Shown here piece after piece: positions 3,661 to 21,194 of a DNA stretch of 22,231 nt. This DNA is from a virus: IMG/VR virus record IMGVR_UViG_3300035698_008578, positions 1 to 22,231 of that record; one strand, 5' to 3'. The first letter of the stretch is position 1. Every line of letters begins with the position of its first letter. The notes under the pieces are model-generated. The model saw only the letters and a list, made by a program, of their open reading frames with translations, was not told the origin of the DNA and made no database searches. The position numbers were made by a program, and so were the translations under genes.

Positions 3661-4799
3661 TGTGAATGTTGCTTAATACCCCTTGTTGTATAGTATTGGT
3701 TGGCCGCCACGCCCTCTTGCGTGTACGAAACGACAATCCCAATGTCTCCGGCATCCCATCTTGGGTGAATGTATACGTCACCCGTTCCAGAATCAACCTC
3801 AACGATAGCCAGCAATACTCTCCATGAGCTTGCCTGATCCAAGTCTTGTACATTAGTGGTAAATCCATATGTTATATCACCAGTATCAATCGCGCCCGTA
3901 GTGAGATCGACAACAATATTACAGTAAAGATAACTCAGTGTGGCTTCTGGAACTGCGATTTGATGTTCAACACCAACCTTAGCATCATTGCCATACCATT
4001 CTTCGCCGACATTATATCCGCTAATAACTAAACCACCGCGTATATTGATGTAACTACCGTCACCATCGAGGAAACAACTGAATGGGCCGTTATATCTGCC
4101 GTGAATCATCCACTGTTCGCCGGTTTTGTAAACGTAGTTGTATCCACTGCCTTCGATATGAGTCAGTATGCTGTCCCAACTGTTGATTGCTCCGGCTGCG
4201 TATGCCAACTGATCCTCGTGCGCCCGCAACTGTTCCTTCATGCCTGCAATTACCGCATTCGTGTTATCCAGCGCCTTGTTGGCCGCATTGAGTTGCTGGG
4301 TCAAGACCGCAACGGGACTGTCTGGCATCCGTGCTTGTTCTTCGGCATGGGCGGCAGCGGCAATCTCTGCAGCGTCAGCCTTTGTCCGGTCATCCTTGTC
4401 TTTTGTCGTGGTTGCGTCGCTTTGCTTAGCCTCCGTTTCCTTCCTGCTTTTCCGTATTGCCCTTTCTTGGTCGTGCGTCCTCCTGGCTTCGGTATCCCTG
4501 CCAGCCTTTGAATCTTCTTCCTTGCGCTTTTCATTCTTAGCTTCGACTTGGGCATCAAGACGCTTTTCCGCTGCTTCATCTCTCGCCGTTTCTTGCTGGT
4601 CAATAAATTCCGCTTGTTTGCGGCTAGCTTCCACTCTTGTGAAGTCTTCCGCGTCTGCTACTTCTCGCGCAACTTCAGCTTGAGCCTCTTGGCGCTCTGC
4701 CCAACTGCCAGTGCCGGAGAGTAATTGCTTTCGCCGCAATCGCTCGCCGCCTTTTGCGCCGCCGATGTACGCCTCTTCTGCTTTTGTAAGTTTAGCCAT
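3657..4799 (-). CDS. Coiled-coil protein with C-terminal beta domain, possible tail appendage (380 aa)
   Basis: Residues ~35-160 are a long run of Ala, Glu, Lys, Arg and Asp with almost no aromatics, as in a coiled coil. Residues ~165-200 form a second helical stretch. From ~205 to the end the composition changes to Gly, Tyr, Val, Ile and Asp, typical of a beta-rich domain. A coiled-coil stalk followed by a beta head is the common plan of trimeric phage fibres and appendages; assigning this protein to that class is inference. The ATG overlaps the stop of the 776-aa gene by one base (TAATG) and the stop overlaps the next start, so it lies in a tightly coupled tail operon. It carries no recognised lyase or peptidase motif. 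Confidence 0.75.
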   Translation of the reverse strand: MAKLTKAEEAYIGGAKGGERLRRKQLLSGTGSWAERQEAQAEVAREVADAEDFTRVEASRKQAEFIDQQETARDEAAEKRLDAQVEAKNEKRKEEDSKAGRDTEARRTHDQERAIRKSRKETEAKQSDATTTKDKDDRTKADAAEIAAAAHAEEQARMPDSPVAVLTQQLNAANKALDNTNAVIAGMKEQLRAHEDQLAYAAGAINSWDSILTHIEGSGYNYVYKTGEQWMIHGRYNGPFSCFLDGDGSYINIRGGLVISGYNVGEEWYGNDAKVGVEHQIAVPEATLSYLYCNIVVDLTTGAIDTGDITYGFTTNVQDLDQASSWRVLLAIVEVDSGTGDVYIHPRWDAGDIGIVVSYTQEGVAANQYYTTRGIKQHSH

Positions 4800-7129
4800 T
4801 ACGCTATATCCGGTTCATCTATGACGAACACGATCTTGACACCAGTATAGAGACTGCCTTCTGGTTCCTTGATTATGTAACCCTGTTTATGGGCAGGTCG
4901 CCCCTCCCCGCCCCAATCCTTAGGGGCACCACCGGATTCGTTGGCAAAAACTATAGCACCAGCTTTCTCCATTCTGTAATTGCGATCTTCTGTTACTCTG
5001 AAAACATGGTTGCCGTGGCCAACGATTGACACTTTATACGGGATCGCATACACTGAGCCGCTGCCTGCATTCTTTGGTATCCTGCCTTGCTGGAACACGG
5101 TCTTGAGGCCGGTTTCAGTGTCTTCGGAAATCCAATGCCTATCATGGATGTAAGTAGTTGAACCAACGGTGAAATCTGCAACAGCTATTCCGCCAACCAA
5201 TGCTGCTTCAGATGTTGCGGTAACATTGGGCCAATACCGCACATGGGTCTGCTCCGTCTTGCCAACATCGGCCTGAACTACCCTGACATAAGCATTGGCA
5301 GCCGCAATGTCGTTGTTGGGCAACGTCAATACTTGGCGAATTGTTACGGCCCTGTTCTCTTGCCGGATAGTTGTGACATCAGAGTTGGTATACACGCCAG
5401 TGTATACTTGGTTGTCGGCCTTGGGATTGGTAAAAGTAGCAGTAGCGCGTAAGGCAGCAGCAAGGGTGTCCGCGGTAGTCGGCCTGACGTTCCTCCATTC
5501 CCGAATAACCTGAGTAGGAGACAACTTGATGTCTGCCCTCTGAGGAACAGCGAGTAGATGAGCGTCTGCCTCGGCCACCGTAGTGGCCAGCTTGGTGAGT
5601 ATTTGATAAATCGTGCAAGTCCCGTCTCTTTCCTCCACACTCCACGCCTTGCTGACAACGAACCAGCCAGTATATGTCTGGGCGTCAGCTTGCGGGTTCT
5701 CGATCTCGTAATCAGAACTTCCAACGGCTGCCGCTATCAAAGTCTCAGCAACAGCGGGGTTGATATACGGCCACCTGCGCTGCAATGTGTCCCCTGCAAC
5801 TCTTGGATCAACTCTCTCCCCAACCAACTGCGCCTCTGCTTCTGTCAAAGTAGTAACATCTGCCGAAAAGAGGGTGAGTTCCTGAGCTATAGTAATCGTA
5901 TTATCCTGCTGTTCTTCGCCCCATGTCCTACCCACACCGAATGTGCCTGTAATCGTTTCATCGTCAACAACAGGGTCTTTAACAGTCTTGGTGCTACGCG
6001 CTGCCGTAATCAAATTGTCGGCATAACTCTCTACTATGTACGGCCACCTGCGAACTATCTTATCGCCAGCACCCCTTGGAATAACACCACGGTTTACCAA
6101 TGTAGCACTATCGTCATCAAGTTGAACTGAAGCCATCGTAACAACCTGAGTAATCGTGCATGTCCTGTCGCGTTCTTCCCTTACCTCAACGCCTGAGTTC
6201 TGCCATAGCTGATCGTCGCTAACGTATATCTGCCCGTCAGCTTGTACGGTTGCGTATGTATTAGTCCCTCTGAGTGTGGTTACGAGCACGTCGGCAACCG
6301 TCTTTAGAATGTACGGCCATCGCCTGACAATCTTGTCGCCGGGTTCTCTCGGATTCACATTTCGGTTTACAAGAACAGCATCGGCTTCTGCTATGTTCAA
6401 GAGCACTACAGAGCTATTGGTCCACGTCGTAGGCGTTGTGCCTGTTGCGGTAAACACATTTCCGTCTTCATTAGTGGCACCAATATTCGAGAAATCGTCA
6501 CCAGTAATCCAGTCTACGAGGATATATTCTTTTCCGACAACAAGCGTACCGCTGGTCTGTTCCGTACCCGTAGCGAGGGTAAGCGTTTGAATAATGGTGC
6601 AAGTATGATCGCTCTCTTTCCGCGCCTCTGTCTCGGAGTGCTGGAAGGTTCCGGTATAAGACTGGCCGTCAGCCTGTGGATTGGAATAGGACGATACGCC
6701 CTTCATTGCGGTCACGAGCGTATCTACGACACTGTTTAGAATGTGGGGCCAACGTCTGACAAGAACGTCGCCGGGTTCTCTTGGATTAACGCTCCTATCA
6801 AAAAATAGAGCATCAGCTTCATCTACGTCACTGGATGTAAGCGTTAACACCTGTCGAATTATCACCCAGCGGACATCACCCGGATGAGGCAACCGCCGCA
6901 CGTCCGAATTTGCGAATACGCCTGTTTCCTGTTCGCCGTCAACCAGAGGATTCGTTACGGTAGCCACAGACCGCATGGTTGTGGCCAAAGTATCCGCAAC
7001 AGTTGGGTCTATTTCAGTCCACTCTCGAACAATACTCTTACCCCGGAACCCGCTGCCCCAGGGTTCACCGATGGAACCGAGTTTTGCGTCACCTTCTGTT
7101 GTAGTTGTTCTGAGATTTCCTTCACTCAT
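4799..7129 (-). CDS. Six-repeat structural protein, probable tail component (776 aa)
   Basis: The protein has six consecutive units of about 90 residues: roughly 33-121, 122-265, 266-356, 357-447, 448-540 and 541-628, with a decayed seventh beginning at 629. Each unit starts with a (V/I)xR(R/E)WPxI-like element, continues through AD-TL, NPxADxQ-YTG and a CTI-Q-LT strand, and ends with EADA-LVxRxVNPR. Unit 2 is longer because a ~53-residue domain (192-244) is inserted near its end. Residues ~650-776 are a unique C-terminal domain. There is no signal peptide or membrane segment. Its ATG overlaps the stop of the 347-aa gene by four bases. I do not know the family; the place in the operon suggests a tail or virion-surface protein. 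The repeat count invites the idea of an intramolecular ring, which is speculation. Confidence 0.85.
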   Translation of the reverse strand: MSEGNLRTTTTEGDAKLGSIGEPWGSGFRGKSIVREWTEIDPTVADTLATTMRSVATVTNPLVDGEQETGVFANSDVRRLPHPGDVRWVIIRQVLTLTSSDVDEADALFFDRSVNPREPGDVLVRRWPHILNSVVDTLVTAMKGVSSYSNPQADGQSYTGTFQHSETEARKESDHTCTIIQTLTLATGTEQTSGTLVVGKEYILVDWITGDDFSNIGATNEDGNVFTATGTTPTTWTNSSVVLLNIAEADAVLVNRNVNPREPGDKIVRRWPYILKTVADVLVTTLRGTNTYATVQADGQIYVSDDQLWQNSGVEVREERDRTCTITQVVTMASVQLDDDSATLVNRGVIPRGAGDKIVRRWPYIVESYADNLITAARSTKTVKDPVVDDETITGTFGVGRTWGEEQQDNTITIAQELTLFSADVTTLTEAEAQLVGERVDPRVAGDTLQRRWPYINPAVAETLIAAAVGSSDYEIENPQADAQTYTGWFVVSKAWSVEERDGTCTIYQILTKLATTVAEADAHLLAVPQRADIKLSPTQVIREWRNVRPTTADTLAAALRATATFTNPKADNQVYTGVYTNSDVTTIRQENRAVTIRQVLTLPNNDIAAANAYVRVVQADVGKTEQTHVRYWPNVTATSEAALVGGIAVADFTVGSTTYIHDRHWISEDTETGLKTVFQQGRIPKNAGSGSVYAIPYKVSIVGHGNHVFRVTEDRNYRMEKAGAIVFANESGGAPKDWGGEGRPAHKQGYIIKEPEGSLYTGVKIVFVIDEPDIA
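5246..7033 (-). repeat. Array of six in-frame ~270-base coding repeats
   Basis: This is the DNA encoding the six ~90-residue units of the 776-aa protein. The units are clearly homologous in protein but have diverged in DNA. The best conserved block reads GDKIVRRWPYI at the junctions of units 2/3 and 3/4. Bases 6398-6556 encode the extra domain inside unit 2. Confidence 0.85.
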
Positions 7130-8180: not shown

Positions 8181-8570
8181 CTAATCATCATCTATCTGGC
8201 CTATGGATTCTTGGTTATCGTCGGCCCGAGTTGCTGAGAGGTCTCTGTCGAGAGTAATATCCCTCAACGCTTCTTTGTAAAAGTCTTCTGCCTTCACTAA
8301 GGTCAGTTCCTTACCGGACCGATGCCCCATTATCATAAGATGAAAATTCACGCCATGAGACAAAACAGGTTCGTTCCAAGCATCCAAGTCTATGTCGGCC
8401 TCTTCGTTAGTAAGCGCATCGGGTCTGCTATCAGTATCCGATACAATTCCAATCTTCTGAAGAACGCGATTCACCGCTTTAAGATAATCCGTCGTGAATC
8501 TGTCATCACCAGCATCCGAATCGAATTGATCGACCTTTTGGCTGAAGAACTCTAATCCGTTGACTGACAT
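8181..8570 (-). CDS. Putative head-tail adaptor (129 aa)
   Basis: The protein is small, acidic and mostly helical. It has an N-terminal segment (FTTDYLKAVNRVLQKIG), a central DLDAWNEPVLSHGVNFHLM stretch and a C-terminal helix, followed by a disordered Asp-rich tail. The helix-aromatic-helix plan, the size and the position between capsid and tail genes fit adaptor or connector proteins that dock under the portal. The call rests on context and is tentative. The start at 8570 has a GAAGG-like ribosome site, and the next gene follows after 11 bases. No enzymatic motif is visible. Confidence 0.7.
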   Translation of the reverse strand: MSVNGLEFFSQKVDQFDSDAGDDRFTTDYLKAVNRVLQKIGIVSDTDSRPDALTNEEADIDLDAWNEPVLSHGVNFHLMIMGHRSGKELTLVKAEDFYKEALRDITLDRDLSATRADDNQESIGQIDDD

Positions 8571-8597: not shown

Positions 8598-9071
8598 CTA
8601 GTTGTCCAGCACAATATACGCCGACACATTCTTGTTAGTCGCAAGCACTGTGTTTCTGGCATACAACCTCACTATCTCTGTGCCAGTCAATAGGTATCGG
8701 GCCATAATCGTGCCGGTATTGGTCGCAGTACCGCTAGTAATCGCATGAACGTTTCTGCGGGGCTGCATGACGGTTCTGGCAATAACAGTATCGTTGCTGT
8801 AGAGCACTGTAGTGGCATCCAGCCCGTCAGCGCCATTGGTGTATATGACGGCAAGCCACACTGAGCCAGTAAATGTCACGCCCGCAGTACCGGGCCATAT
8901 CTCAACGGACTCAATCCATCCTATTGCGCCGGCATGACTGGCGCTGGTATATGTGCCGTTCGTAGGTACATCAGTTACCCTCAACGGAAATCCGTCTATC
9001 TCGCCAGCCGTCGCTCCCATAACGACAACCAGAAGGACGCAGAATCCGGCAAATGCCAAAAGTCTTTTCAT
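8598..9071 (-). CDS. Exported protein with signal peptide (157 aa)
   Basis: The N-terminus has a classical Sec signal: two basic residues (MKRL), a hydrophobic core of about 15 residues (LLAFAGFCVLLVVVMG) and a small-residue cleavage region (ATAG) near residue 22. The mature ~135 residues are rich in Thr, Gly, Val, Ala and Asn and read as beta strands. The family is unknown. There is no lipobox: the Cys at residue 11 lies inside the hydrophobic core. AGGAG precedes the ATG, and a stem-loop lies just upstream of that. A secreted or periplasmic protein is unusual inside a virion operon. It may be a cell-envelope or superinfection function, or a surface protein processed in the host; neither can be decided here. 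Confidence 0.8.
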   Translation of the reverse strand: MKRLLAFAGFCVLLVVVMGATAGEIDGFPLRVTDVPTNGTYTSASHAGAIGWIESVEIWPGTAGVTFTGSVWLAVIYTNGADGLDATTVLYSNDTVIARTVMQPRRNVHAITSGTATNTGTIMARYLLTGTEIVRLYARNTVLATNKNVSAYIVLDN

Positions 9072-9086
9072 CTTTCGTCTCCTAAC

Positions 9087-9118
9087 AGGGGAGGCAGGAT
9101 TCAGGCCCGCTCTCCCCT
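9087..9118. other. Intergenic stem-loop before the exported-protein gene
   Basis: AGGGGAG pairs with CTCCCCT (7 bp). The stem continues after one bulged A with GCGGG against CCTGC (one G-U on the transcript), closing a 7-base loop. No U-tract follows on the minus strand, so it is not a standard terminator. It lies just upstream of the AGGAG ribosome site of the gene that starts at 9071. Confidence 0.6.
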
Positions 9119-9132
9119 ATGGTTGTCGTTGA

Positions 9133-10566
9133 TTACTTGGCTCCAATAGCCATCCACGCAACGCTCTTGGAATTGACGGCGATGCAGGTGAAGTTTGTGG
9201 CGTCAACCGAACTGGCCTCGGCGAGTGTATCCGCGCCAGCATCTTCTTGATATGTCAGGAAGATTTGCGGAACCGCACTGAATACAGTCGTGAACGTGAT
9301 CTCTTCGCTGTTCGTGCAAGTTCCATGCTCGGTCGTATACTGCGTGGTGCCGTCTTTCGACAGAAGCGCGTAGCGCGTAAGCACAGTGGGCGATACGTCG
9401 AACGAAGCAACCTCATCAACATTCAGTAGACCCTTGATAGTAGTTATTTCAGTGGTCTTACCAATGTCAATGGCGTTGGCGATGTTGGTGCCTATAGCCA
9501 GCGTTCCAGCAGTCTTGGCATCCAAGCCAATGTCTGTCGGATCAACCGTGATATACATGGCATCAATACCTAGACTATGAACCGACTCCGCATCGAAGGT
9601 TGCAACTTCGTCCACGGACAACGTACCGAGGATGTCAGTATTAACCGCAGTCTTCGCTATAATGACAGATGTAGCTATGTTTGTACCAAGAGCTAACCCG
9701 CCAGCAGACTTGACATCAACTCCTGCTTCGGCGTCAACAGTCACATACTTAGTATCGAGACCGCCGTTATGCACCGATTCGGCTGTGCATGTCAGTACGC
9801 CAACAGAAGCCACAGTACCAGTGACTGTCAGGTTCGTGGCAATATAGAAATTGCCGGTAACCGAGTCTGTCGTTGTGCTAAGATTGCCAGCAGTCAAGTT
9901 GCCAGTGACAACAAGAGTACCACCAACCGTTGCATTCGTGCCAACTGTCAAACCATCAAGGCAAACTGGGGTGGCGGTAAAGGTCGCAACTCCAGTAACT
10001 CCCAGCGTGCCTCCGACTGTCGCATTAGTGCCAACAGTTAGACCATTGAGGCAAACAGGAGTAGCAGTAAACGTCGCAACGCCCGTAACACCGAGTGTCT
10101 CAGCAACTGTGGCAAGACCCGCAACCGTGAGGTCATTCAGTATTACATCTTGAACTGAGATGTCCTCACTAACGATTAGGTTGTCACACACAACCTTGTC
10201 CACGGTCATGGTGCAGACGCCGCCACCGGCACGGAAATGGATTGTACCATATACAGAATCACCATCGTACCATGTGAGTATGTTGAGACCGAAGGCCGCG
10301 AGGCTTGTCAGAAGCACGAAAGCGAAAGCGAACACAAGCATCTGAATAGAACCTCTTCCGCAAGTCCCGTCTGATTCTGAACCGAAATGAGTCTTGGCAA
10401 ACCTCTTCCAATTCGCAGTATGTTCTTTTCTGTATTTCATTTCTTGCCTCAGTTGCGCTTCCAGGTTCTTCACCATTTTGAGAAGACCATTAAGCTTAGG
10501 CTCTTTCTTCGCCTCTGCTTTCGGCTCCTCTGCTACCGTCTTCTCACTCTGTTTCTTCTCTGCCAT
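9133..10566 (-). CDS. Membrane-anchored repeat protein with H-type-lectin-like C-terminus (477 aa)
   Basis: Residues 1-70 are charged and helical (Lys/Glu-rich, probable coiled coil at 25-60). Residues ~75-97 (IQMLVFAFAFVLLTSLAAFG and on) are one hydrophobic helix. The basic N-terminus predicts a type II membrane protein with its C-terminus outside. From ~125 it is a series of short strand repeats of the TLGVTGVATF type. This includes two near-identical 30-residue units (157-186, 187-216) and two ~64-residue units (262-325, 326-390). The last 55 residues, ending SVAWMAIGAK, resemble the H-type lectin domain found at the tips of some phage fibres. GAGGAG precedes the ATG. It could be a virion fibre whose hydrophobic helix buries in the capsid, or a host-surface adhesin; the sequence alone does not decide. 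Confidence 0.8.
   Translation of the reverse strand: MAEKKQSEKTVAEEPKAEAKKEPKLNGLLKMVKNLEAQLRQEMKYRKEHTANWKRFAKTHFGSESDGTCGRGSIQMLVFAFAFVLLTSLAAFGLNILTWYDGDSVYGTIHFRAGGGVCTMTVDKVVCDNLIVSEDISVQDVILNDLTVAGLATVAETLGVTGVATFTATPVCLNGLTVGTNATVGGTLGVTGVATFTATPVCLDGLTVGTNATVGGTLVVTGNLTAGNLSTTTDSVTGNFYIATNLTVTGTVASVGVLTCTAESVHNGGLDTKYVTVDAEAGVDVKSAGGLALGTNIATSVIIAKTAVNTDILGTLSVDEVATFDAESVHSLGIDAMYITVDPTDIGLDAKTAGTLAIGTNIANAIDIGKTTEITTIKGLLNVDEVASFDVSPTVLTRYALLSKDGTTQYTTEHGTCTNSEEITFTTVFSAVPQIFLTYQEDAGADTLAEASSVDATNFTCIAVNSKSVAWMAIGAK
9397..9783 (-). repeat. Two ~64-residue coding repeats in the 477-aa gene
   Basis: Residues 262-325 and 326-390 align from AESVH to SVDEVATFD / NVDEVASFD, sharing YVTVD / YITVD and LALGTNIA / LAIGTNIA. 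They are protein-level tandem repeats in a beta-rich shaft. Confidence 0.7.
9919..10098 (-). repeat. Tandem 90-base coding repeat (30 aa x 2) in the 477-aa gene
   Basis: Two adjacent units encode 30 residues each, beginning TLGVTGVATFTATPVCL. They differ at one residue (Asn/Asp) but at about 21 of 90 bases, nearly all synonymous. Confidence 0.85.
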
Positions 10567-10597
10567 GAGAGTGCTCCTCTATTTTGAGGGTAAAGGG

Positions 10598-10618
10598 AGG
10601 TAAGAACAGTTCCTACCT
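10598..10618. other. Intergenic stem-loop after the HNH gene
   Basis: AGGTAAGAA pairs with TTCCTACCT across a 3-base loop (9 bp with one wobble on the minus-strand transcript). No U-tract follows on the minus strand. It lies between the HNH stop and the GAGGAG ribosome site of the 477-aa gene. Confidence 0.5.
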
Positions 10619-10626
10619 TACCCCTA

Positions 10627-11148
10627 TTATTTTTCTACGATTGAGTGGCAGTTGGCACACAGAATGACGCACTTCTCCAATTCCTTCCGCAACTCTTTCC
10701 GGTCAAGATTCCAGCCATTCGAGATCTTTGTGCTGATTCCAAATGACTTCTTGCCTTTTTCGAGATGATGGAACTGAAGTGCCGCCAATGTCTGATCGTA
10801 CCCACATACCACGCATTTGCCTCCGAGGTACTCCACGCACTCTGCCTTGTTTCTTCGAGACATATGCCCCTTGGCAGCCAGAATTTCTGCTTTGTATTTG
10901 TGGTAGCACCGAGCGTCAATGCCCCCCTGCTTCTCTGGGTGTAACTCTCGGTATTCCCGCATCCACGCCGCATGATATTTCCTGTTTCGCGCGTTGATAC
11001 CATCCTTGCATTCTTGGTATTTATCTCGGTTTCTCTTTTTGGCCGCTTCGCGATAAGCCTCATCTTCCGCATACTGAGTCCTAAGTTTCTCCAAGAGTGC
11101 TGCCTTGTGCTTCGCGTAGTACCTCTTATTGTATTCTTTCTTGTTCAT
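10627..11148 (-). CDS. HNH endonuclease, homing type (173 aa)
   Basis: The C-terminal half has the HNH signature: CVVC at 112-115, LQFHHLE with the catalytic-type His pair at 127-128, and LCANCH at 163-168. The two Cys pairs would bind the structural zinc. The first ~100 residues are a basic run of short repeats built on NKRYYAKHK, RKYHAAWMREY and CYHKYKAEI, like the DNA-binding repeats of free-standing phage HNH enzymes. Such enzymes cut DNA and spread themselves between related phages, often next to capsid or terminase genes; this one sits just after the capsid gene. GGGAGG precedes the ATG. The domain looks complete and no intron boundary is visible in the capsid gene. Confidence 0.92.
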   Translation of the reverse strand: MNKKEYNKRYYAKHKAALLEKLRTQYAEDEAYREAAKKRNRDKYQECKDGINARNRKYHAAWMREYRELHPEKQGGIDARCYHKYKAEILAAKGHMSRRNKAECVEYLGGKCVVCGYDQTLAALQFHHLEKGKKSFGISTKISNGWNLDRKELRKELEKCVILCANCHSIVEK

Positions 11149-11169
11149 CTCGGCCTCCCGTATAAGGTC

Positions 11170-11202
11170 GGGCTGGAGGAGGAATACGGCCTCCTCCAGC
11201 CC
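11170..11202. other. Strong stem-loop between the capsid and HNH genes
   Basis: A perfect 13-bp inverted repeat (GGGCTGGAGGAGG with CCTCCTCCAGCCC) encloses a 7-base loop. It lies 44 bases after the capsid stop and 21 before the HNH start. Neither strand has a U-tract after it, so it is more likely a transcript stabiliser, processing site or translational control element than an intrinsic terminator. On the minus strand the loop (CCGTATT) can pair with ATACGG just ahead of the HNH ribosome site. Confidence 0.8.
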
Positions 11203-11246
11203 TCACAAGCTAATTATGCTTGTGTAGAGTTTGGCACAGAAATGGC

Positions 11247-12185
11247 CTAGGCGCCGGCATTCCTCGTCATGTTCTTCAAAAGCGAACCACCAGCCGCTAC
11301 TTGAATTTTCAGCCAGAATCCCGCCTTGATGTGTGGATGATCCTCGCCCGGAAGGGCAAGCTTTCCAACAGTCGGAGGCGTGAAGACCATATAATGCAGT
11401 CCCCACATAGTCTGCGGAAGGTCTCCCCAACCGAACCATGCGGTCGAGTTGGTGAGATGATGCCATATCATCACTCCAAAGTCCTTGAAGATATTCGCTC
11501 TGTTGAGCGCGTCTTCAGGGGACTGAAGCGATCTGGCAATTTCCAGAGCAGGCTTCCTGTTGTCTACGTGAACAACAATCTTCTGCATAGTAATGGGTGA
11601 GATTTGCCCCAACTCATTAGTACGCTTCTGCATGTTGTTGTACATAGCGCTGAGCGTGGTCGAGGACAATGCCGCTCCCGTTTCCACGTTGCTGTAAGTG
11701 CCGCCAGCAGGATCTTCGTGCTCATGATCGTTATCGAACAGGAACTGACTGTCCGCGCCCGTCGTAGTTGTGCCGTTGTTAATAGGATCAACAAAGGCAT
11801 ACTCCAACCAACGCTTACCAGCCCGCGGTAGGCCACTGATCATATCAGCGGCGCGACCACCTGACCTGTCGAGCTTGAGCAACGTATCCGTAATCCTTAT
11901 AGACTGCTGAAGGGTCGGAATCGTGAAGTCCATAACATGTCCCGGAGCAACTGAAGACCTGGGGACTGGCTCGGTGTCATCTGCCTCAATAGGCAGAGCA
12001 ACCAGTGTACCCGTAGTCGTTACTCTGAAGGATATGTTGTCGGCATCCTCGGTAGTGTAGAACTGTTGTCCTTGAACAGGCAGATTATCTTCGCGCTTCA
12101 GATAGAGATCCATCTGCTTATCGTACATATCAGTGTACGCTTCTCTCTGAAGAACACCTGACCGGACATAGGTTAATGCAGCCAT
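11247..12185 (-). CDS. Major capsid protein (HK97-fold type, 312 aa)
   Basis: I identify it from position and composition. It follows portal, scaffold and decoration-like genes, its length is typical, and it shows the usual features: an N-terminal arm, long helices around 180-225, and strand-rich P- and A-domain-like segments with MWGLHYMVFTPPTVG near residues 260-280. In the virion it would form the icosahedral shell, assembled on the scaffold and maturing during packaging. AAGGAG lies at ideal spacing before the ATG, as expected for a highly expressed gene. No prohead protease gene or N-terminal delta-domain is visible, which fits assembly on a separate scaffold. The HK97 fold is inferred, not read from a motif. 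Confidence 0.8.
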   Translation of the reverse strand: MAALTYVRSGVLQREAYTDMYDKQMDLYLKREDNLPVQGQQFYTTEDADNISFRVTTTGTLVALPIEADDTEPVPRSSVAPGHVMDFTIPTLQQSIRITDTLLKLDRSGGRAADMISGLPRAGKRWLEYAFVDPINNGTTTTGADSQFLFDNDHEHEDPAGGTYSNVETGAALSSTTLSAMYNNMQKRTNELGQISPITMQKIVVHVDNRKPALEIARSLQSPEDALNRANIFKDFGVMIWHHLTNSTAWFGWGDLPQTMWGLHYMVFTPPTVGKLALPGEDHPHIKAGFWLKIQVAAGGSLLKNMTRNAGA

Positions 12186-12200
12186 GATTATACTCCTTTC

Positions 12201-12719
12201 TTAGGGTGCTACCTTCTCGGCATCGAGGGCTGTCTCAAGAATCTTAACATACGTCACAGCTAAGGTGTCCGTTGAAGCGTTTTGAAATGCTTCGAGAACC
12301 CACTTAGGCTGAACGACCTCAAACACAGCATTTGTGCCTGAACCAACATTCAAAGTACAAAGGTTGGCTGACACATCCATGTCATACCGCTGACTGACAG
12401 CCGTACGAGCGACTGTCCCATCGAGTTCGTTAATTTCATATACATCATCTGCATGTACAGTATTAACAACTCGGACATTTGTATCCACCCCAGTGGTCGC
12501 AGTGTCAAGGTCAGAGATCGCTACATAGTTAATAGCGTCTTCATCAACACCAAGATTCCCCCCTGTGATGCACTCGTAGAGAAGCGCGTCGTTCTTAGAC
12601 ATCAAGAACTGACCGGCTTTCCAAGTGGCGCTACCATCAGACATCAGTCGATTTTTCGCGGGTGTAGCCCCAGAATAGTTCCAAACCACGCTGGGATTCC
12701 TTGCATTTTTTGCAGCCAT
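12201..12719 (-). CDS. Capsid decoration-like protein, copy B (172 aa)
   Basis: It is a paralogue of the gene just upstream (170 aa), about three-quarters identical by eye. The first 25 residues (MAAKNARNPSVVWNYSG onward), the DLDTATTGVDTNVRVVNT block, the YDMDVSANLCTLNVGS block and the VVQPKWVLEAFQN block are shared. The composition is beta-rich, with no signal peptide or membrane segment. Its position directly before the capsid gene, plus size and fold type, suggest a capsid-surface decoration or stabilisation protein like the lambda gpD or beta-tulip class; this is inference. AGGAG precedes the ATG, and the capsid gene follows after 15 bases. Confidence 0.72.
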   Translation of the reverse strand: MAAKNARNPSVVWNYSGATPAKNRLMSDGSATWKAGQFLMSKNDALLYECITGGNLGVDEDAINYVAISDLDTATTGVDTNVRVVNTVHADDVYEINELDGTVARTAVSQRYDMDVSANLCTLNVGSGTNAVFEVVQPKWVLEAFQNASTDTLAVTYVKILETALDAEKVAP

Positions 12720-12730
12720 AATTTCTTCTC

Positions 12731-13243
12731 CTACACCTTAGAGGCGTTGAGTGAGCGTCCAAGAATTTTCACATATGTCACAGCCAGCGTATCTGCCGCG
12801 AGATTTTGAAATGCTTCGAGAACCCACTTAGGCTGAACAACCTCGAATATGGCATGCGAATTGGAACCAACATTCAAAGTACAAAGGTTGGCTGACACGT
12901 CCATATCGTACCATTGGCTGACCTGTGCCCGAGTGACCGCCGCGTCGTTTTCGTTGATCTCATACACATCATCTGCATGTATGGTATTAACGACTCGAAC
13001 GTTCGTGTCTACTCCAGTGGTGGCCGTATCGAGATCAGTGATCGCTACGTAGTTAACGGCATCAGCAGCAACGCCACTAGCCGCACCAGTAGTGCTTTCA
13101 TACAGAAGACCGCCATTATCCGACCTCAAGAACTGACCGGCCTTCCATGTAGCATCACCATCGGATAGCAGCCGATTTTTCGCGGGTGTAGCCCCAGAAT
13201 AGTTCCAAACTACACTGGGATTCCTTGCATTTTTTGCAGCCAT
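12731..13243 (-). CDS. Capsid decoration-like protein, copy A (170 aa)
   Basis: This is the first of two tandem paralogues. It shares blocks with copy B over the whole length and differs mostly at 39-60, around 100-112 and at the C-terminus. About 70 bases at the 5' end differ from copy B at only two positions, so duplication or gene conversion was recent there. The ribosome site is GAGGGGG. Two variants of one surface protein could occupy different sites on the capsid, or one could be a spare; the sequence does not say. The decoration role is inferred from its place beside the capsid gene. Confidence 0.72.
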   Translation of the reverse strand: MAAKNARNPSVVWNYSGATPAKNRLLSDGDATWKAGQFLRSDNGGLLYESTTGAASGVAADAVNYVAITDLDTATTGVDTNVRVVNTIHADDVYEINENDAAVTRAQVSQWYDMDVSANLCTLNVGSNSHAIFEVVQPKWVLEAFQNLAADTLAVTYVKILGRSLNASKV

Positions 13244-19730: not shown

Positions 19731-19750
19731 GGGCTAGCCCTCTCCTAGAA

Positions 19751-19780
19751 ATGCTAAACGTTTCGTTGTTGACTCGTCAA
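19751..19780 (-). promoter_or_regulatory. Candidate promoter for terminase operon
   Basis: On the minus strand TTGACG (19780-19775), an 18-base spacer and TAGCAT (19756-19751) give a moderate sigma70-like promoter about 20 bases upstream of the terminase ATG. The -10 box is weak. Confidence 0.4.
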
Positions 19781-19781
19781 C
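19768..19781. promoter_or_regulatory. Operator-like palindrome in the divergent intergenic region
   Basis: GTTGAC-TC-GTCAAC is a perfect 6-bp inverted repeat with a 2-base centre. Each arm contains TTGAC and therefore a -35 box for opposite directions. A dimeric regulator bound here would cover both -35 boxes. Confidence 0.55.
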
Positions 19782-19798
19782 TACAATTAGAATATACT
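19769..19798 (+). promoter_or_regulatory. Sigma70-like promoter for the plus-strand gene
   Basis: TTGACT (19769-19774), an 18-base spacer and TATACT (19793-19798) are each one base from the consensus hexamers. Transcription would begin near 19805, which is the ATG itself, so the message is predicted to be leaderless. Confidence 0.65.
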
Positions 19799-19804
19799 CC
19801 AAAC

Positions 19805-20233
19805 ATGAATGGCAAAAAATCTCCCGCCAGAATGCGTCATCAATTCCACGAAACGCTCGCCCGCGCCCTCGGAAATCTTGGACTAACTGTTAATGAGGTC
19901 ATGGTTTGCCCCGTAGATCGTCACACAAAATCAGGCTTAGTCGTTTATCGCAAACGGTTTTTGAATATTGACCGCAATGCCGGAAACCCTGTTCCTTGGA
20001 AAGCCATTGCAATAGCCGGAGCACAAGCCCGGAAGAATGCTTTAATCGGATTCCTCTACCCGGACGGCAACATCAGAAACGATTCCGAGATGACCGTGAA
20101 TGACATCAACAAGCAGATCGAGATTCCAATATTTGTACTCTTCTACGAAGACCACGTTCCAATGAACTCACGGAAGCATCTGGCCTGCGGAAAAGACCAT
20201 TTCGATCAGCCAATTGTTATCGGACCCAAGTAA
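19805..20233 (+). CDS. Lone divergent gene, unknown function (142 aa)
   Basis: This is the only convincing plus-strand gene. The start MNGKKSPARM at 19805 coincides with the predicted transcription start and has no Shine-Dalgarno sequence, as in leaderless messages. The frame is open further upstream, but that stretch overlaps the promoter. The protein is mixed alpha/beta: a basic helical N-terminus (RHQFHETLARALGNLGL), strand-like segments (VNEVMVCPVD, KSGLVVYRKRFLNI), a helix (PWKAIAIAGAQARKNALIGF), and a strand-rich C-terminus (IEIPIFVLFYED). No catalytic motif or clear helix-turn-helix is visible. It ends four bases from the end of the convergent zinc-ribbon gene. Its separate promoter and shared operator suggest a regulator or an independently expressed moron; both are inference. 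Confidence 0.75.
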   Translation: MNGKKSPARMRHQFHETLARALGNLGLTVNEVMVCPVDRHTKSGLVVYRKRFLNIDRNAGNPVPWKAIAIAGAQARKNALIGFLYPDGNIRNDSEMTVNDINKQIEIPIFVLFYEDHVPMNSRKHLACGKDHFDQPIVIGPK

Positions 20234-20237
20234 TCTA

Positions 20238-20587: not shown

Positions 20588-20950
20588 TTACCCCTCGTGG
20601 ATGATGCCAAGAACGTCCGACTCCTGAATTATCTGGTATTGCTTCCCGTCTGATAGTTCAATCTCAAAGCCGGAATGTTTCACAACGAGTATCCGGTCTC
20701 CCACTACCGCCTTGAAGGGAACAAGATTGCCGTCCACGTCTCTCCAGCCCGTGCCTAGCGCTATCACGGTTCCCTTTTGCGGTTTCTCCTTGGCGTTATC
20801 CGGCAAGAAGATTTTCCCAACCTTGTCCACCGCAGGATCAAGCTCAATAAGAATCCGATCCCCGATTGGTTCAAGGCTGAATCCGTACTTACTCGCCGTC
20901 TTCGCTTTTCGCTTGCTTGCTCGTTGCTGTTTTCCCGCCTTTTTTGGCAT
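20588..20950 (-). CDS. groES: GroES-type co-chaperonin (120 aa)
   Basis: The core (residues ~23-120) matches Cpn10: PIGDRILIEL at the start, a flexible mobile loop around 39-58 with the hydrophobic GKIFLP element that docks on GroEL, KGTVIALGTG, VVGDRILVV, and the C-terminal strand YQIIQESDVLGII. It would form a heptameric lid on the host GroEL, as T4 gp31 does for its capsid protein. The first 22 residues are an extra Lys/Arg-rich tail absent from normal GroES. The ATG at 20950 has AAGGAG seven bases upstream; a Met at 21016 in the same frame lacks support. The tail's 62 bases also encode the end of the upstream 101-aa protein in another frame. No GroEL gene is in the window. Confidence 0.92.
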   Translation of the reverse strand: MPKKAGKQQRASKRKAKTASKYGFSLEPIGDRILIELDPAVDKVGKIFLPDNAKEKPQKGTVIALGTGWRDVDGNLVPFKAVVGDRILVVKHSGFEIELSDGKQYQIIQESDVLGIIHEG

Positions 20951-21194
20951 CCTTTTTCTCCTTCGCTGGTGTGATTTTCTTGGAATCAGGAACCTTGACA
21001 ATCTGAACTGCTCCATTGTTCATATGCTCAATCCGATACGAGTAACAAACTTGCTTCTTGCCTTGGTCGTATTCGGCCTTCAGGTTCTTCAGGACGCGGA
21101 AGAAATCCCCCTTGAAGGAACACCCCTCGACGATGAGATCGTCCGCCCTTTCGTCGTACTGTACATCTAGGTTCTTTGACTTCAGTGTTATCAT
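20889..21194 (-). CDS. Hypothetical protein with Lys-rich tail (101 aa)
   Basis: Residues 1-70 form a small mixed domain (strands LDVQYDERADDLIVEG and QVCYSYRIEHM, a helix at ~30-45). The last 30 residues are a Lys/Ala-rich disordered tail. The family is not recognised. The start makes a 4-base ATGA overlap with the upstream gene. The 3' 62 bases are shared with the start of GroES in a different frame. Such coupling suggests the two proteins are made together, but no functional link is shown. Confidence 0.68.
   Translation of the reverse strand: MITLKSKNLDVQYDERADDLIVEGCSFKGDFFRVLKNLKAEYDQGKKQVCYSYRIEHMNNGAVQIVKVPDSKKITPAKEKKDAKKGGKTATSKQAKSEDGE

Follow-up and report, generated by a model that had tools for sequence, protein, structure and literature searches.

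The IMG/VR virus record IMGVR_UViG_3300035698_008578, a stretch of 22,231 bases from an uncultivated tailed phage, analysed in full and referred to here as the window (positions are those of the whole record), contains a minus-strand run of virion genes for a terminase, a portal, a scaffold-like protein, two decoration-like proteins, the major capsid protein, an adaptor-like protein and tail proteins. Between the capsid and adaptor-like genes, this run holds a block of three minus-strand genes encoding an HNH endonuclease of 173 amino acids, a membrane-anchored fibre-type protein of 477 amino acids, which we denote P0001, and a protein of 157 amino acids with a predicted Sec signal peptide, which we denote P0002. 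An earlier note on this DNA had described the block as a possible horizontally acquired accessory system of the cell surface. Sequence comparisons show instead that the P0001/P0002 pair belongs to the core gene set of an unusual family of phages and is not a recent import; superinfection exclusion and a capsid fibre with a host-processed partner, both raised in that note, may still apply.

Relatives were found in IMG/VR by searching with the capsid, terminase, portal and tail proteins. Beside the window, three lineages, L007 (G003), L011 (G001, 50.6 kb) and L017 (G002, 53.3 kb; L013–L015 are essentially identical), bring to four the number in which the slot between capsid and adaptor is readable. 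A further record, L006, is 99.6–100% identical to the window over shared proteins and ends inside the capsid gene, short of the block. The capsid proteins of the three further lineages are 42–44% identical. In the window, the major capsid gene (11247–12185, minus strand) gives a match to Mu-like gpT of 24.9 bits, above the cut-off, and a match to PHROG 371 (major head protein). The adaptor-like gene that forms the downstream border (8181–8570, minus strand) encodes a protein that is 35% identical in L007 and L011; because family searches gave no match for it, the adaptor name was given by position.

The P0001 and P0002 proteins

P0001 (9133–10566, minus strand) consists, from its N terminus, of a Lys/Glu-rich coil, an S-x-SDG motif, a hydrophobic segment of about 20 residues, β repeats rich in Thr, Val and Gly, and a C-terminal domain. 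The charged coil (residues 24–61; 10384–10497, minus strand) is predicted to be helical in a low-confidence structure model and to lie on the cytoplasmic side. The putative transmembrane segment (residues 76–97; 10276–10341, minus strand), preceded by the conserved S-x-SDG motif, includes the top 19-residue hydropathy window of the protein (2.41, at residue 76) and corresponds to a helix at residues 75–97 in the same model. Because the N terminus flanking this segment is rich in Lys, an N-in/C-out topology is expected. The Lys-rich coil is kept in L007, L011 and L017, and the hydrophobic segment is found at the matching place in all four lineages.

Two types of repeat follow. Tandem Repeats Finder detected a 30-residue fibre repeat (9901–10114, minus strand; 90-bp period, 2.4 copies), with 96% identity over 25 residues at offset 30, and self-comparison at offset 65 revealed two copies of a second repeat of about 65 residues, of the GGLALGTNIATS type (9394–9783, minus strand; 60% identity over 25 residues). 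The P0001 repeats match fibre-type proteins in other phages (70% over 44 residues in L002 and 58% over 48 residues in L003), and the protein has a weak match to PHROG 5070, a group of unassigned function (E=7e-4). At the tip (residues 422–462; 9181–9303, minus strand), similarity to H_lectin (PF09458) reaches 13.9 bits (E=0.061), below the 24-bit cut-off, and a PDB search with the tip gave no useful sequence relative. Of the membrane protein with a lectin-like tip proposed in the earlier note, the membrane segment is supported by its hydropathy, and the lectin-like label, its match being below threshold, is a lead and not a finding.

The coil, the motif, the transmembrane segment and the β segment that comes next form an N-module that is 43% identical between L011 and L007 (E=2e-27) and is detectable in the window protein by comparison with relatives (E=8e-9 and 8e-6). 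The distal parts share no similarity (E=0.12 for L011 against L007; E=2.4 for the window protein). Phage fibres evolve with a conserved anchor and an exchanged tip, and P0001 appears to follow this logic, being unusual in that its predicted anchor spans a membrane. With β repeats shared with fibres and a conserved N-terminal anchor attached to an exchangeable distal part, P0001 can be classed from its sequence as a fibre-type protein, and the suggestion of a fibre in the earlier note was sound. Like the head and tail fibres of tailed phages, which have triple-helix-like β repeats, P0001 combines a conserved N-terminal anchor, GTNATVGGTLGVTGVATF-type repeats and a variable tip. Unlike known tailed-phage fibres, the proteins of this family have either a transmembrane segment in the anchor or a Sec signal peptide at the start; both features are missing from the L003 and L004 fibres that gave matches.

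P0002 (8598–9071, minus strand) starts with the sequence MKRLLAFAGFCVLLVVVMGATA-GE. Its ATG is preceded by a strong ribosome-binding site, TTAGGAG, and the N terminus, called by a rule-based scan from this correct start codon, has a charged n-region, a hydrophobic h-region and a cleavage site of small residues, with cleavage predicted near residues 21–23 (9003–9071, minus strand). This is the layout of a textbook Sec signal peptide, as the earlier note had recognized, and predicts export. P0002 has no lipobox: its signal region contains a single Cys (C11), which comes after AGF and ahead of most of the h-region. P0002 has a relative in L007 (37% identical, E=4e-23) and a weaker one in L017 (E=3e-4). 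Family scans gave no match for P0002, its profiles did not match the small β proteins of L002 and of MW202601, a distant relative of the window, and a PDB search yielded no useful match.

The slot, its hairpins and export signals in related phages

All four lineages share the gene order capsid, membrane-anchored fibre-type protein, one or more signal-peptide proteins and adaptor, and in each of the three further lineages the first protein of the slot consists of a charged coil, a transmembrane segment and a fibre-like region. Because the pair is present at the same place throughout, it does not behave as an acquired accessory block. Presence or absence in relatives, the comparison proposed in the earlier note, thus argues against acquisition of the block as a whole and does reveal variation in the HNH gene, which occurs in two of the four lineages. 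This gene (10627–11148, minus strand) does encode an HNH endonuclease, as had been noted: its product scores 22.1 bits against Pfam HNH (PF01844; cut-off 21.4) and matches PHROG 2255 (HNH) with E=6e-19. L011 has an HNH gene at the same place, 43% identical to the window copy; L007 and L017 lack it, with gaps of 91 and 72 bp between the capsid and fibre genes. Relatives of the window gene are contained in 296 phage records. By these comparisons the HNH gene is the sole mobile element of the block, apparently an insert unrelated to the P0001/P0002 pair.

MW202601, whose capsid protein is 33% identical over 46% of its length, resembles the window in having several accessory genes between its capsid and tail genes and differs from it in that none of these slot genes has a signal peptide. 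Annotated phages searched with P0001, P0002, the N-module and four signal-peptide fibres gave no match.

The junctions of the block fold into hairpins. A strong hairpin follows the major capsid gene (11170–11202, minus strand; junction −49.5 kcal/mol, z=−5.7), another lies between the P0001 and P0002 genes, just before the ribosome-binding site (9087–9118, minus strand; −24.3 kcal/mol, z=−3.6), and a weaker one lies between the HNH and P0001 genes (10593–10625, minus strand; −20.4 kcal/mol, z=−2.2). No hairpin was found at the two adjacent junctions sampled (adaptor/next gene and decoration/capsid). The gaps of the block measure 98, 60 and 61 bp, whereas most adjacent virion genes are separated by no more than 15 bp. 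Elsewhere in the run there are longer gaps of 27, 44, 59 and 198 bp, and the longest of these folds as well (z=−2.9), so that the block is not alone in having hairpins. The boundary hairpins of the earlier note are present. Hairpins of differing sequence also follow the capsid gene in L007, L011 and L017, and so in every lineage. Every lineage likewise has a stem ahead of the ribosome-binding site of the signal-peptide gene (z=−3.1 in L007, −3.7 in L011 and −1.4 in L017); this stem is kept although the sequences differ, and CGACAACC stands just ahead of it in three lineages. Hairpins after capsid genes are ordinary, and those of the block most likely tune dose and are not scars of insertion. 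In Paenibacillus phage API480, the depositors annotate terminators after the capsid gene and the gene that follows it. For the window hairpins an intrinsic terminator reading was rejected, as they have no T-run and a terminator scan found none there; a search of Rfam gave no match.

Export signals extend to the tail-fibre end of these phages, where signal peptides start several large proteins (506 and 577 residues in G001; 542, 1202 and 221 residues in G002), and strong ribosome-binding sites lie ahead of most signal-peptide starts. The 506-residue protein of G001 and the 1202-residue protein of G002 align from residue 1 over 180 residues, signal peptide included (38% identity, E=5e-28), and diverge beyond this shared anchor. 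By eye, these tail-fibre-like proteins seem to contain YadA-head-like repeats, GIGT-x-x-P repeats and C1q-like tips; in Pfam they give a weak lower-baseplate match alone, and a PDB search with the G002 fibre gave no useful match (best E=0.009, a hexapeptide-repeat enzyme). L002, which has a portal of the SU10 type and a capsid of another family, has two fibre-like virion genes with signal peptides (L002:7116–8342 and L002:13317–15446), one of which carries the repeats shared with P0001. Signal-peptide-like starts occur in 12 of 77 virion genes from five genomes, L002 included, against 2 of 105 from five control phages (Fisher p=7e-4), a value that is only indicative, since the controls were simply the phages available, the genes cannot be counted as independent and it was a fibre match that led to L002. 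The statement in the earlier note that virion genes rarely encode signal peptides therefore holds for the control phages and fails for the lineage of the window, in which tail-fibre-like proteins have them as well. Taken together, export signals seem to be a selected habit of this lineage in its fibre-type proteins. Cysteine enrichment of the exported proteins was marginal (p=0.04) and was not used. Full-text searches of a library of open-access papers turned up no account of signal peptides on the fibres of tailed phages (most subscription journals lay outside these searches). Separately, in Pseudomonas phage PMBT14 the annotated capsid gene (L047:4840–5976) has a signal-peptide-like start, which may reflect the choice of start codon or a prodomain.

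Proposed envelope targeting and alternative explanations

In the textbook view, the virions of tailed phages assemble in the cytoplasm from proteins of that compartment, and exported phage proteins are agents of lysis, exclusion or toxicity. We tentatively favour, as an explanation that falls somewhat short of probable, that P0001 and P0002 form a core, late-expressed fibre module targeted by Sec to the host envelope, with the HNH gene an unrelated insert. P0001 would insert N-in/C-out, so that its coil faces the site of capsid assembly, the cytoplasm, and its fibre lies outside the membrane; P0002 would be exported as a partner or decoration of P0001; and the hairpins would set the dose of both proteins below that of the capsid protein. 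Attachment of the fibres to virions, by joining or docking, would then most likely happen at the membrane or in the course of lysis, and not by assembly with the virion in the cytoplasm. In favour of this explanation are the pair kept in one slot across four lineages, the conserved membrane anchor with its exchanged distal part, and the recurrence of signal peptides on fibre-type proteins of the family.

Several points weigh against a Sec-targeted fibre module. Because Sec export separates a protein from cytoplasmic capsids until lysis, incorporation into virions needs an unproven step; membership of P0001 and P0002 in particles is a supposition, and late expression is suggested by gene position only. 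The partner is not one conserved protein, because L011 replaces P0002 with three other proteins with export signals, one of which has a Laminin_G-type lectin domain, and the N-module of L017 aligns weakly (E=3e-4). Signal peptides were called by a simple rule, not by SignalP. Structure models built from shallow alignments were of no usable quality (pLDDT 36 and 33, the latter for P0001), and a search for hosts in genome_contigs with the portal and terminase found no match.

The main rival is adsorption control, in which the pair, placed on the infected cell, would occupy or mask the phage's own receptor and so block superinfection and the sticking of progeny to lysed envelopes. The envelope-targeting signals on both proteins would serve this purpose, and the distal fibre domain differs between lineages, as a match to receptors would. 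There is also a known precedent in T5 Llp, a phage-encoded exported protein that blocks the receptor FhuA (PMC9586334). Llp and P0002 are alike in being small, phage-encoded and exported (by prediction for P0002); Llp, however, is an early-expressed lipoprotein, whereas P0002 has no lipobox and its gene, next to one for a fibre, is part of the virion run. More generally, exclusion proteins are expressed early in infection (PMC9586334), whereas the position of the pair within the capsid-to-tail run suggests late expression. Adsorption control also leaves the signal peptides on the tail-fibre-like proteins of the same phages unexplained. Exclusion genes are usually sporadic, whereas the pair is found in all four lineages, and on balance we regard this role as unlikely. 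Rather improbable, too, is that the proteins are not exported at all, their hydrophobic N termini acting in the virion by capsid anchoring or by membrane insertion at infection, with fast trimerization or assembly avoiding Sec. The proximity of the genes to the capsid gene, the fibre repeats and an N-module conserved like a virion-docking domain would all fit, but the classical layout of charged, hydrophobic and small residues recurs across a number of unrelated protein families, is seldom seen in the control phages and would not be needed repeatedly by a virion anchor.

The remaining alternatives have little to recommend them. Acquisition of the block as an accessory cell-surface system would account for the HNH gene alongside and for long gaps and hairpins at the borders, yet two lineages have the pair at its usual place with no HNH gene, and the junction hairpins recur in relatives that lack that gene, so that we consider this reading very improbable; as stated it is refuted for the pair and applies to the HNH gene alone. 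A spanin-type lysis pair, comprising an inner-membrane protein and an exported outer partner, is brought to mind by the succession of a type II membrane protein gene and a signal-peptide gene, as in adjacent i-spanin and o-spanin genes. Unlike such pairs, however, P0001 has a long cytoplasmic N terminus (75 residues) and an outer part that is β-rich and repetitive, P0002 has no lipobox, and the genes lie beside the capsid gene; a small coil protein with one transmembrane segment, encoded after the last fibre gene of G001, suits a lysis role better. A lysis function of the pair is hardly credible, and the spanin and lipoprotein readings were both rejected on the missing lipobox.

In a lineage of tailed phages, Sec signals kept on fibre-type proteins across deep divergence, tail-fibre anchors included, would mean either an envelope stage of assembly or fibres that double as cell-surface proteins. 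A wider proposal, which we think possible and at present doubtful, is that a tailed-phage family and at least one phage with an unrelated capsid and portal route fibres through Sec, the fibres lying in or beyond the inner membrane and meeting capsids there, by a capsid-side anchor that faces the cytoplasm, or at lysis. If this is true, the envelope would be the site of part of virion assembly, and these fibres might also cover the infected cell. For annotation pipelines, a signal peptide should not exclude a gene from the virion set.

Other genes in the window

Upstream of the capsid gene, the tandem decoration-like genes (12201–12719 and 12731–13243) share 79% identity; L007 and L011 each have only one such gene. 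A GroES-like co-chaperonin (Cpn10, 75.9 bits) is encoded at 20588–21016, and two matches to it occur in L007. The 507-bp region at 19731–20237, upstream of the terminase gene, is without a credible minus-strand gene and is probably regulatory. The structural protein encoded at 4799–7129 (776 residues) is made of diverged repeats, and its 293-residue relative in L011 hits it at more than one place, which suggests repeat expansion.

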